Source: Verrucomicrobia subdivision 6 bacterium
GTDB lineage: Bacteria > Verrucomicrobiota > Verrucomicrobiia > Methylacidiphilales > Verrucolacustridaceae
Direction: 5' to 3'
Length of the DNA stretch: 64,000 nucleotides
Assembly (NCBI GenBank): GCA_947466515.1
Contig: CANIEM010000001.1
Span: 1 to 64,000, forward strand
Shown here piece after piece: positions 3,532-7,474 of the stretch. The first letter of the stretch is position 1. Each line of letters opens with the position of its first letter. Under the pieces are notes generated by a model, which saw nothing but the letters and a program-made list of their open reading frames with translations, had not been told where the DNA came from and did no database searches. The position numbers were made by a program, and so were the translations under genes.

Positions 3532-3562
3532 TTGAACTTTTTGCCAACTTATTCACTATGCA
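3532..3562 (+). promoter_or_regulatory. Possible promoter of the large RNA
   Basis: TTGAAC (3532-3537) and TATGCA (3557-3562) resemble -35 and -10 boxes but are 19 bases apart, longer than ideal. They sit between the hairpin that ends the S9 gene and the first stem of the RNA block. The call rests only on box similarity and position. Confidence 0.3.
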
Positions 3563-4632
3563 AACCCCTTGGGATGGGGTTTGGATTTGGCCTGATAGGT
3601 GGGCTAGGTAAAAAGATCTTAGTTCATTGAAAGAACAGAGTCTGGTGGAAGGGGCGAAAGCCTACTTTCATTTGAAGACTCTCAGGATAGCTCCAGGTAA
3701 CTGGAGAATGGTCGGGGAACCTTGACTGCCCCGGCCCCCGAGTTGGATCACAAGTCCAGTTCGGGCATGTCTCACCGAATCCCGCGGCTGGGGTCGCACC
3801 CAGAAAAGCATCGGCAAAAGAAGAGCGAAAGCGAAACTGATGACGGTGTCCGTAGAATGCGAATAAGGGGTTTGCGAGGCCGGCAGCGATAACTAAAGAA
3901 GCCGCATGCTGGTTAAGTTACGTTGGGGGGGAGGTTTCGGCCCCCTTGGCGGACGCAGTCGCTCCAAGAAAAGGGCGATGGTTGCTACTGTGAGGAAAGT
4001 CAGGTGTCCGTAGTTGGCTTGAGTGAGGAGTTCGTAAGGCTCCTGGCTCTAAGGTTCCTCCTCATGCAGGGGGAACGCGAAAAGGGCTGGCTGGCGGATA
4101 GACGGAGACGGGAGATTAAACCGGCAGGTTTAGTCAACAGCCCGTTTCTGAGTTCGGGGGGCGGACCCGAGAGGGACGTCGCCCGGCTACGAGAAAAAAG
4201 CAACCTGAGAGATAAGAAGCTAGACCCGTGGCGGGGGGCCAACGCGGTGCCAAAAGCACTGGCTGTCCTCCCGACTAAAGGCGGTGACTCGGAAAACAAC
4301 CTGTCACAGGGTAATTCTCGTGGGTGGGTCAACGCCGTGTGTGGCGCGCCCGTACCGGCAGGTACGGACCGAACCAGGCAAAGAGGCTTCACTCAATAGA
4401 TTGCGATCAGGGATGGTCGCGAAGGCCCTGCTATGAGGCCTAAACTTCTCCTCCGCCGTGAAGCGGGGGTGGTGAATAGCGTCGGGAAACTGGCAGCCGA
4501 AGCAAAAAGCAGGATGAATCGAGAGATTGGTCCAGGCGCCAAATAGCCAGTCACTGGGAAAGAGAGCGTGGCGAGCTCCCACTCCCGTATGAACCCTTGG
4601 AGGCAAAACCTCCAAGGGTTCTTTTTTTTTTT
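3562..4632 (+). ncRNA. Large structured non-coding RNA, family unassigned
   Basis: About 1.07 kb holds no convincing protein gene but is full of perfect stems capped by short loops, which suggests a folded RNA. Seen: AAACCCC/GGGGTTT (3562-3582); GAGTCT/AGACTC closing 3638-3682, with GGC-GAAA-GCC inside (3653-3662); CTCCAG-GTAA-CTGGAG (3691-3706); CTGGG/CCCAG near 3788-3803; TAAACC-GGCA-GGTTTA (4117-4132); CCGTACC-GGCA-GGTACGG (4350-4367). Several loops are GNRA tetraloops (GAAA, GTAA). A 13-bp terminator with a T-run ends it. I looked for signatures of RNase P RNA, tmRNA, SRP RNA, rRNA and group I/II introns and did not find them. GAGGAAAGTC near 3991 resembles one RNase P segment, but the partner segments are missing. 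It lies upstream of rplY on the same strand. The exact 5' end is a guess. Confidence 0.6.
4591..4632 (+). terminator. Strong intrinsic terminator of the large RNA
   Basis: GAACCCTTGGAGG (4591-4603) pairs perfectly over 13 bp with CCTCCAAGGGTTC (4609-4621) across a CAAAA loop. An uninterrupted run of T residues follows immediately (4622-4632). This is a textbook Rho-independent terminator. It ends 118 bases before rplY, so the RNA block is transcribed separately from the ribosomal-protein operon. Confidence 0.93.
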
Positions 4633-4750: not shown

Positions 4751-5509
4751 GTGGCTAAAAGGTTAGGAATAAAAGCAAAGATAAGAGTAGAGGTTGGCGG
4801 TCGTCGTCCTCGGCGAGTCCGCAAGAGTGGACGTGTGCCTGCGGTGATGTATGGGGCGGGCACTTCGCAGGTTTTAGAGTTGAATGGGCGTGAGATTGCG
4901 GAAGCATTGCATCGGGCTACTTCGGAAAATGTTTTGGTGGATTTAACGATTGAGGGAGAGGGTGGGGCAACGAGTAAAAAGATTGCCTTGATCCGAGAGG
5001 TGCAGCATCACCCTTTGCGGGATACGATTGAGCATGTGGATTTTTATCAGATTGATGAAAGCAAGAAGTTGCGGGTGGAAGTTCCGGTGCACGAGGTTGG
5101 GGAATCGGTGGGAGTGCGCACGGGTGGTGGAATTTTGGATCACGCTTTGCGAACTTTGCGGGTGGAATGTTTGCCGAAAGATTTGCCTGAGCGGATTGAC
5201 GTGGATGTTTCCAATTTGGCGGTAGGCCAAGCAGTGCATGTGGGCGAGGTGAAACTTCCTGATGGGGTGGTTGTTCTGAATACGAAAGAATTGCCAGTGT
5301 TCATGGTGCTTCTGCCGAAGGTGGAAGAGGAGCCGGTTCCAGGTGCAGCCGCGGCTGCGACGGAGCCTGAAGTAATCCGGCAGAAGAAAGAGGGAGAAGG
5401 GGAAGAGGGTGCGGCACCAGATAAAAAGGATTCGGCCAAGGGAGAAAAGAAAGAACCCGCCAAGGTTGAAGCCAAGGAGGGGACCAAGAAGGAACCGGCC
5501 AAGAAATAA
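4751..5509 (+). CDS. rplY: 50S ribosomal protein L25 (Ctc/TL5 type)
   Basis: This 252-residue protein binds 5S rRNA in the large ribosomal subunit. The N-terminal L25 domain (about residues 5-95) shows RKSGRVPAVMYG and the later HVDFYQID motif. It is followed by the beta-rich Ctc/TL5 domain (GGILDHALRTLRVECLPKDL) and a long Lys/Glu/Pro-rich tail from about residue 200, characteristic of the long bacterial form. GTG at 4751 is chosen because GGAGG (4740-4744) lies six bases upstream and the sequence after it matches the usual N-terminus; an in-frame ATG further upstream has no such support. It heads the run rplY-pth-rpsF-ssb-rplI. Confidence 0.93.
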   Translation: MAKRLGIKAKIRVEVGGRRPRRVRKSGRVPAVMYGAGTSQVLELNGREIAEALHRATSENVLVDLTIEGEGGATSKKIALIREVQHHPLRDTIEHVDFYQIDESKKLRVEVPVHEVGESVGVRTGGGILDHALRTLRVECLPKDLPERIDVDVSNLAVGQAVHVGEVKLPDGVVVLNTKELPVFMVLLPKVEEEPVPGAAAAATEPEVIRQKKEGEGEEGAAPDKKDSAKGEKKEPAKVEAKEGTKKEPAKK

Positions 5510-5524
5510 CGGGCAGGAGGGGCG

Positions 5525-6097
5525 ATGGAGATCGGCCTGGTTACTGGATTGGGGAACGAAGGAAAGTCCTATGAGGGGACTCGTCACAATTTCGGTTTCG
5601 AGGTGGTGGATCGGATCGCAACCCAACATGGGCTCCGATGGGAAAAGTGTCGCTACGCGGAAGCGTGGGCGGCCCGTACCCCGGAAAACCTAGTCTTGCT
5701 CAAGCCGACGACGATGATGAATGCCTCTGGCGAGGCGATTCAAGCGGCGCTGGCCTGGTGGAAAGTCCCCCAAGAAAAATTTATGGTGATATTAGATGAC
5801 GTCGACCTGCCTCTGGGAAAGCTCCGCTTACGGGCGGAGGGTTCTACAGGAGGCCATCGCGGCCTTAGCTCGATCGAAACGCTTTTGGGAACGCGGGCCT
5901 ATTTGCGTTTGCGTGGTGGGGTGGGGCGTCCGGTGGGGGAGCGAGACACGGCGGATCACGTCTTGGAAAAATTTACGCCAGAAGAGCGGCCGTTGGTTGC
6001 TCGGATGGTGGAGGCGGCCGCGGAGGCTGTGGGGGCTTGGAGGCAAGGAGGCTGGGAGGCCGCTTTGCCACTGGGCAACCGGAAAGTGGAAATATGA
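5525..6097 (+). CDS. pth: Peptidyl-tRNA hydrolase
   Basis: This 190-residue protein should cleave peptidyl-tRNA released by stalled ribosomes, recycling the tRNA. The family motifs are in place: GLGNEGKSYEGTRHN near the N-terminus holds the substrate-binding Asn and the catalytic His, KPTTMMNASG follows, and LDDVDLPLGKLRLRAEGSTGGHRGL carries the Asp and the conserved GGHxGL turn. Length matches the family. It lies 15 bases after rplY, the usual rplY-pth pairing. Its stop overlaps the rpsF start as ATGA, so the two are translationally coupled. Confidence 0.96.
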   Translation: MEIGLVTGLGNEGKSYEGTRHNFGFEVVDRIATQHGLRWEKCRYAEAWAARTPENLVLLKPTTMMNASGEAIQAALAWWKVPQEKFMVILDDVDLPLGKLRLRAEGSTGGHRGLSSIETLLGTRAYLRLRGGVGRPVGERDTADHVLEKFTPEERPLVARMVEAAAEAVGAWRQGGWEAALPLGNRKVEI

Positions 6098-6426
6098 AAA
6101 CATACGACCTGTTGGTGATTTTAGATTTAGGGGGCAAAGAGGAATCTCTGCCTGAGGTATTGGCACAAGTTGAGGGTGAGGTGAAAGCGGTAGGCGGGAA
6201 AGTAACCCGGACTCAAAAAATGGAACGCCGAAAATTCGAGTATGTGGCGGGCGATCTTGAGTCGGGTTTCTACGCGAACCTGACTTGTGAATTACCTCCT
6301 GAATCAATTGTGAAATTGCGAGGGAAGTTGGCCCTTTGTGCGCCAGTTTACCGATATCTTCTTGTTTCGATTTCGGCGAAAGAGCTGGCTCGTCAGAAGC
6401 AGGCGCCGGCGGAAGTTGCCGTTTAA
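6094..6426 (+). CDS. rpsF: 30S ribosomal protein S6
   Basis: The protein has 110 residues and matches bacterial S6: the N-terminal strand (MKTYDLLVILDL), the middle motif KMERRKFEYVAGDLESGFY and the helix-strand ending CAPVYRYLLVS. S6 pairs with S18 in the small-subunit platform. The ATG at 6094 overlaps the pth stop codon and gives the normal length. In many bacteria rpsF is followed by ssb, rpsR and rplI; here rpsR is missing from between ssb and rplI. Confidence 0.95.
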   Translation: MKTYDLLVILDLGGKEESLPEVLAQVEGEVKAVGGKVTRTQKMERRKFEYVAGDLESGFYANLTCELPPESIVKLRGKLALCAPVYRYLLVSISAKELARQKQAPAEVAV

Positions 6427-6436
6427 GGAGAGTGTC

Positions 6437-6898
6437 GTGGCCAGCCTGAATAAAGTACTTTTGATGGGGAACCTGACGAGGGATCCCGAGGTAAGGCATA
6501 CACCGAAGGGGACGGCGGTGGGGGATTTGGCGATGGCGATCAACATGACGTACAAGGCGCAGGACGGGACGGAGAAAGAGGAAGTTTGCTATGTGGATGT
6601 GGTGGTCTGGGGTCGGCAAGCGGAGACGTGTCGGGATTATTTGACGAAGGGGGCTCCTGTTTTTGTGGAAGGGCGTCTGCAGTTGGATCAGTGGGAGGGA
6701 CCTGAGGGAGAAAAGAAGAGTCGGATGCGGGTGCGAGCGGATCGGGTGCAGTTTCTTTCGCGTAGCGGGGGCGGTGGTGGCGGTGGAGCGCGTGGGTCGC
6801 GGAGTGATGGAGCTGGGGGTGGAGCGCCGAGCGAAGGGGGAGCCCCCAAGCAGGCTAGCCCGCCTCGGGATCTTCCCGAAGACGACGTACCTTTCTAA
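6437..6898 (+). CDS. ssb: Single-stranded DNA-binding protein
   Basis: This 153-residue protein has an N-terminal OB-fold (about residues 1-108) with the hallmark LNKVLLMGNLTRDPEVR and WGRQAETCRDYLTKG. A Gly/Ser-rich linker follows, then the acidic tip EDDVPF that recruits repair and replication partners. The GTG at 6437 is preceded by AAGGAG (6425-6430). It starts ten bases after rpsF, as in the common rpsF-ssb arrangement. The family binds single-stranded DNA during replication and repair. Confidence 0.96.
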   Translation: MASLNKVLLMGNLTRDPEVRHTPKGTAVGDLAMAINMTYKAQDGTEKEEVCYVDVVVWGRQAETCRDYLTKGAPVFVEGRLQLDQWEGPEGEKKSRMRVRADRVQFLSRSGGGGGGGARGSRSDGAGGGAPSEGGAPKQASPPRDLPEDDVPF

Positions 6899-6931
6899 AC
6901 AAAAACAAAAAGAAACAGGAGAACCAGAAGC

Positions 6932-7474
6932 ATGAACATTGAAGTGATTTTAAAAGGGCCGGTAAAGGGATTGGGAGCGGAAGCGGATATGGTCAAGGTA
7001 CGTCCTGGCTATGCGAGGAACTTTTTATTTCCCAATGGGTTGGCAACGCCGCTGAATGCGGGAAGCCGACGCCAAGTGGAGTCGTTGAAGAAAAAGCGGG
7101 GAGAGCGGGAAGCGGCGGAGGCGGCGGCGGCTCAGGAGAAATGTGGCAAGCTGGCACGGTTGATGTTGGCTTTCGAGCTGAAGCAAGCGCAAGAGGGGGC
7201 GGAAAAGCTTTTTGGAGCGATCACAGCCGCGGAGATTGCGGCGGCCTTAGTGGAAAAAGGTTTCGAAGTAGATCGCCGAGATATTTCGCATGCCAAGGCG
7301 ATTAATCAGGTAGGGGAGCATGAGGTGGTGGTAGACCTAGGTTATTCGATTAAAGCGACGATCAAAATCAAGGTGACTGGGAATACGGATGAGAACTTTG
7401 AAAGAGCGTCGAAAACGAAGCGGCCTCGCAAAGCGGCTGTTTCGGCTGAAGCTAAAGAAGACAAGTCGGAATAA
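6932..7474 (+). CDS. rplI: 50S ribosomal protein L9
   Basis: At 180 residues the protein is a little longer than most L9 proteins because of a basic C-terminal tail. The 23S rRNA-binding N-domain shows the signature VKVRPGYARNFLFPNGLAT. A long charged helix (about residues 50-80) and the C-domain (LFGAITAAEIAAAL, EVVVDLGYSIKATIKIKV) follow. It closes the rplY-pth-rpsF-ssb-rplI run, 33 bases after ssb with AGGAG upstream. Confidence 0.95.
   Translation: MNIEVILKGPVKGLGAEADMVKVRPGYARNFLFPNGLATPLNAGSRRQVESLKKKRGEREAAEAAAAQEKCGKLARLMLAFELKQAQEGAEKLFGAITAAEIAAALVEKGFEVDRRDISHAKAINQVGEHEVVVDLGYSIKATIKIKVTGNTDENFERASKTKRPRKAAVSAEAKEDKSE

Follow-up and report, generated by a model that had tools for sequence, protein, structure and literature searches.

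The RNA encoded on the forward strand from position 3621 to about 4629 of the window (the whole 64-kb stretch of DNA that was analysed, from a bacterium of Verrucomicrobia subdivision 6) is a member of the MISL family (Rfam RF03079). The family itself was already catalogued. What the present analysis adds is that the RNA begins with a boxA-like element in nearly every species examined, and that it contains at least five conserved pseudoknots. On balance, we favour the view that MISL is, throughout the family, a large, non-ribosomal structural RNA that the antitermination machinery of rRNA transcribes and that is made and folded like rRNA, with a boxA in its first nucleotides, a fold with multiple pseudoknots, and conservation across the Verrucomicrobiota.

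The family assignment comes from a cmscan match at 3685–4579 (+), which we take as the RNA core. It scores 358.2 bits (E 1.2e-106), exceeding the gathering threshold of 274.6 bits for RF03079, and is full length, covering all 751 model positions on the same strand. In the model alignment the MISL consensus helices and sequence blocks are present, and two segments are invariant or nearly so among the loci compared, AGACCCGT (69/69 loci) and GCGTCGGG (68/69). This rules out a new RNA class, and with it the suggestion, made when the sequence was first read without database searches, that the region held a large RNA of no recognised family. That sequence-only reading also allowed for a known class with a strongly expanded member, and this alternative is the better fit. 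The copy in the window has 895 nt against 751 model positions and, when aligned to locus L015 as a typical MISL, carries five inserts of 9–46 nt (46, 9, 17, 11 and 25 nt). The biggest of these is a lineage-specific 46-nt insert at 3810–3855 (+), which forms a weak hairpin (z −1.7), and the same expansion is found throughout the genus of the window. No second Rfam family reached its gathering score in the 64-kb window, nor was any tRNA or tmRNA found there (Rfam scan, with ARAGORN for tmRNA), and a relaxed-threshold Rfam search of the window added only chance-level matches. Neither RNase P, an intron or another catalytic RNA family, nor OLE, GOLLD or ROOL, was matched in the window at gathering or relaxed threshold; RNase P, tmRNA and introns were the classes that might have explained the RNA away. 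In the literature searched, no functional study of MISL was found; the Ribonanza preprint includes a MISL segment among its chemically mapped RNAs.

The source genome, a MAG (2.06 Mb in 84 contigs, 88% complete), belongs to a freshwater genus of 'Verrucomicrobia subdivision 6' and has a single copy of MISL. Of 20 other genomes examined from this genus, mostly incomplete MAGs, 12 have the RNA; among 39 genomes from other families of the order, one does. In the class as a whole, 93 of 384 genomes are positive and 291 negative, and two genomes elsewhere in the phylum carry MISL as well. A conserved 3' pattern, when run against named genomes, gave at least 118 matches, nearly all in Verrucomicrobiota, and these included Opitutaceae, Limisphaerales/Pedosphaera types, and subdivisions 3 and 6. 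Two pattern matches titled Bryobacterales and Desulfatitalea (L128, L140) were due to chance and are without MISL. The same pattern gave no match in viral contigs, and a phage or mobile origin was rejected on this ground. A tree of 68 MISL copies keeps nearly every bacterial family monophyletic (25 changes, with a minimum of 24 and a shuffled mean of 46), the pattern that mainly vertical descent would give, with the caveat that the deep branches are long and the branching order there is unsure.

Some genomes depart from the single full-length copy. Two genomes of an Opitutaceae-type family (G188 and G277, family f20) each carry two full-length, diverged copies. Genome G324 has a shortened MISL of about 576 nt (C27:150611–151186) that scores 352 bits and still reaches model ends 1–751, and which may be an internally deleted variant; a separate partial copy lies on its contig C33. 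In many metagenome assemblies MISL is found no more than a few hundred bases from a contig end (L005, L008, L011, L013, L014, L066), probably owing to its conservation among strains that occur together. Ribosomal RNA operons also often sit near contig ends in such assemblies.

For analysis of flanks and covariation, 139 distinct full-length loci were extracted. When 137 of them are aligned on the boxA-like element, TTG is enriched at −35 to −33 and TA...T at −13 to −8. This spacing places the predicted start at the element or 1–2 bases before it. The predicted sigma-70-type promoter in the window (3587–3614, +) has a −35 hexamer TTGGCC at 3587–3592, a 16-nt spacer, and a −10 hexamer TAAAAA at 3609–3614. 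The positions fit the 137-locus alignment and the hexamers are weak; a simple consensus scan misses this promoter. At the other end, an intrinsic terminator lies just 3' of the core in 118 of 135 loci, versus 7 of 135 after shuffling, with stems of 11–15 bp in all but two of the terminator-bearing loci. The window terminator (4591–4632, +; fold z-score −6.8) is exactly as it had been described from the sequence, with a 13-bp stem at 4591–4621 and a run of T at 4622–4632. Together, the start and the terminator predict a discrete window transcript of about 3621–4629, roughly 1.0 kb. The limits proposed earlier, 3562–4632, enclose a genuine structured RNA, while about 3562–3618 falls upstream of the predicted transcript.

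The 5' element matches the rRNA boxA of its own lineage. In bacteria, boxA is a signal for the transcription of rRNA without premature stops. The near-invariant sequence GTTCnTTGAnAGAAC (15 nt), or one closely similar to it, directly precedes P1 and the Rfam core in all 139 distinct loci; 134 of these match a strict regular expression and the other five are near matches, against a background of 0.008 per 120 nt. In the window the element reads GTTCATTGAAAGAAC (3622–3636, +), forms the predicted 5' end of the transcript, and could fold into a 4-bp hairpin. The motif occurs once in the whole 2.06-Mb source genome, at this site. In these genomes the boxA of the 16S leaders is of the GYTCTTTGAAA type, and between MISL and rRNA boxA of the same genome a mean of 9.05 of 11 positions agree, versus 3.2 with shuffled letters (20 genomes), the agreement being only 7–8 of 11 in the window's own genus. 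The 16S search found no 16S gene in the window's own MAG, and the rRNA boxA on the window side was taken from congeners. Using the 16S model and the 27F pattern, there was also no 16S match in several single-contig, ~100% complete genomes (G080, G138, G132 and others), so the search looks insensitive there, and absence of the gene is not implied.

The MISL element and the rRNA boxA share a short sequence, and both lie downstream of the promoter of a long untranslated RNA. They differ in placement, the MISL boxA being at the predicted +1, at the very 5' end, whereas rRNA boxA in these genomes lies 105–260 nt upstream of the 16S start. They also differ at position 5, which is A or C in most MISL copies and T in most rRNA copies, although in two genomes (G292, G128) the 16S-leader boxA is GCTCATTGAAA, with A at this position as in most MISL copies. 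MISL boxA varies at positions 5 and 10. Position 10 is free in the published gamma-proteobacterial consensus GYTCTTTAANA (PMC5725501). A further difference from the rRNA leader is that most MISL copies have no boxB or boxC. In three divergent copies (L068, L069, L071) a short hairpin occurs directly 5' of boxA, an arrangement reminiscent of the boxB–boxA order of rRNA leaders. The genes for NusB and Rho are present in the source genome, and the MISL boxA is proposed to recruit NusB/S10 for antitermination as on rRNA, which would protect the transcript from Rho.

A doubtful, though by no means negligible, alternative is that GTTCnTTGAnAGAAC is not a boxA, being instead a terminal stem-loop that protects the 5' end, or simply the first structural hairpin of MISL. 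Pairing of GTTC with GAAC is possible in most copies, and GAAC is conserved nearly as well as GTTC. However, the four pairs are broken 10, 9, 5 and 1 times and compensated 0, 0, 0 and 1 times, the loop letters TTGA are nearly invariant, and divergent copies without the hairpin still keep GATCTTTGACAG, as do their rRNA leaders. It is also conceivable, but very unlikely, that the main role of a 5' boxA on an abundant, stable RNA is that of a decoy, titrating NusB/S10 and thereby adjusting rRNA synthesis. Lying at the predicted +1, the boxA would be retained unless the 5' end is processed, but a decoy role leaves unexplained a knotted core of about 900 nt that is conserved across many families. 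An antitermination signal in the manner of rRNA is the reading that we retain for the element.

A hairpin, P1 (3637–3682, +; fold z-score −3.8 for 3619–3683), separates boxA from the Rfam core. Its arms co-vary, with −12.5 kcal/mol for the native duplex against −7.3 kcal/mol for species-swapped arms (91 distinct combinations; p 7e-34, not corrected for relatedness). When the alignment of 139 sequences (effective number about 47) was scanned for covariation, it returned Rfam helices and the terminator, together with five long-range helices that have no place in the Rfam structure line. The many stems seen in the single sequence are real, and they co-vary across the 139 loci; the covariation analysis adds five pseudoknots to them. 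All five are on the plus strand, each shows compensatory changes, and the window sequence satisfies every one. Pseudoknot a pairs 3721–3726 (CTTGAC) with 3999–4004 (GTCAGG), with pair counts of, for example, TA 101/CG 23 and GC 79/AT 27 of 139. Pseudoknot b joins 3795–3798 (CGCA) to 3858–3861 (TGCG; CG 92/TA 42, GC 80/AT 38), and c joins 3980–3985 (GGTTGC) to 4200–4205 (GCAACC; GC 108/AT 18, TA 115/CG 16/AT 4). Further downstream, d is formed by 4187–4192 (CTACGA) and 4318–4323 (TCGTGG; CG 66/TA 40/AT 7, GC 68/AT 58/CG 4), and e by 4429–4434 (TGCTAT) and 4476–4481 (ATAGCG; TA 67/CG 40/TG 30, AT 121/GC 16). A sixth, f, is tentative (3898–3902 with 3934–3938, +), its pairs being kept in 127–136 of 139 loci with little compensatory change. 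AGACCCGT and GCGTCGGG are complementary over 4 nt in every case, which was weighed as an extra pseudoknot and rejected, there being no variation and no support from the alignment.

Compared with the RF03079 model, the functional unit described here adds boxA, P1, the terminator, and the pseudoknots that the structure line of the model lacks. Covariance models cannot represent pseudoknots, so the five may already have been annotated by the authors of the MISL family. A knotted fold with several pseudoknots and with the invariant segments noted above might suggest that MISL is not a scaffold and instead works as a ribozyme or as the RNA subunit of an enzyme. We regard this as unlikely, as no partner gene is linked to MISL and the Rfam scans gave no match to a catalytic RNA family.

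The RNA is non-coding. In an alignment with eight other congeneric sequences, three of these have frameshifts in the longest plus-strand ORF (3923–4399, 158 aa), and substitutions in this region are even over the three codon positions. A protein-coding gene was rejected, no frame being conserved among congeners, and the earlier judgement that the RNA has no credible coding potential holds.

The genes that flank MISL are lineage-specific (names are from reading the proteins, not from a family search). In the window's genus they are an S9 peptidase and rplY-pth, at some Opitutaceae copies a helicase and typA, and in many Limisphaerales-type genomes cysK. The window continues after MISL, at 4755–7474, with rplY, pth, rpsF, ssb and rplI-like genes in one direction, a cluster of ribosomal and replication genes (named by eye from ORF translations). 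No conserved neighbour gene was found across the lineages compared, and a conserved position upstream of rplY is seen only in the window's genus, other lineages having other neighbours; MISL is thus a free-standing gene, not an rplY leader. That it might be a cis-acting leader controlling the downstream rplY-pth operon is suggested by its place directly upstream of rplY in this genus, and by the link of boxA to translation genes elsewhere. Since a strong terminator closes the RNA, and the downstream genes are quite different in most other lineages (typA, cysK), such control is extremely improbable.

MISL ranks among the larger orphan RNA families of bacteria. Like OLE, ROOL and GOLLD (PMC12286853), it is a large, ornate, pseudoknotted bacterial ncRNA. 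As to kind, the analogy with these RNAs drawn in the sequence-only reading is reasonable, but MISL forms an unrelated Rfam family of its own. The only ROOL copy examined, that of plasmid pMP118, lacks a comparable boxA-like start, and on this single test giant RNAs do not carry boxA as a general feature. ROOL and GOLLD are borne by phages or prophages (PMC12286853), in contrast to the lack of matches to the MISL 3' pattern in viral contigs. A precedent for the 5' element is given by the CRISPR arrays, long untranslated, non-ribosomal RNAs that are served by boxA according to PMC7862264 (citing Stringer et al. 2020). MISL would likewise carry a boxA on a long untranslated RNA that is not ribosomal; CRISPR arrays are processed precursors, whereas MISL is a single structured RNA.

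The joint explanation that accounts best for these observations, and which we hold to be probable, is that of a free-standing MISL gene with boxA/Nus antitermination, producing a pseudoknotted, trans-acting structural RNA. The gene (window 3621 to about 4629, +) would encode a large non-coding RNA acting in trans. RNA polymerase would start at the sigma-70-type promoter, and the first 15 nt or so (boxA) would bring NusB/S10 and the remaining Nus factors to the polymerase, as happens on rRNA. The untranslated 1-kb RNA could then be made without termination by Rho and fold in an orderly manner during transcription, into domains locked by at least five pseudoknots, before ending at the intrinsic terminator. 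The mature MISL, presumably abundant, would most likely be a stable structural scaffold, in a ribonucleoprotein or an RNA-only assembly. Counting against this explanation are the weak promoter hexamers of the window, the departures of the MISL boxA from the rRNA form in letters and placement, and the chance that the 4-bp hairpin sequesters the element. Membership of the family, the promoter–boxA–P1–core–terminator anatomy, the covariation of helices and pseudoknots, the non-coding character, the inheritance by family and the lack of a conserved neighbour are all shown by the sequences; for the steps beyond them our confidence is highest for a discrete transcript, and falls through Nus-dependent antitermination and a stable trans-acting structural RNA to the scaffold or assembly.

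With its predicted 5' and 3' ends, the conserved, putative antitermination signal at +1, and five pseudoknots in hand, an exact construct is available for expression and structural work. If the proposed mechanism is true, MISL output would depend on boxA and NusB, like the output of rRNA, and a stand-alone structural RNA would join rRNA, some mRNA leaders and CRISPR arrays as a user of boxA.
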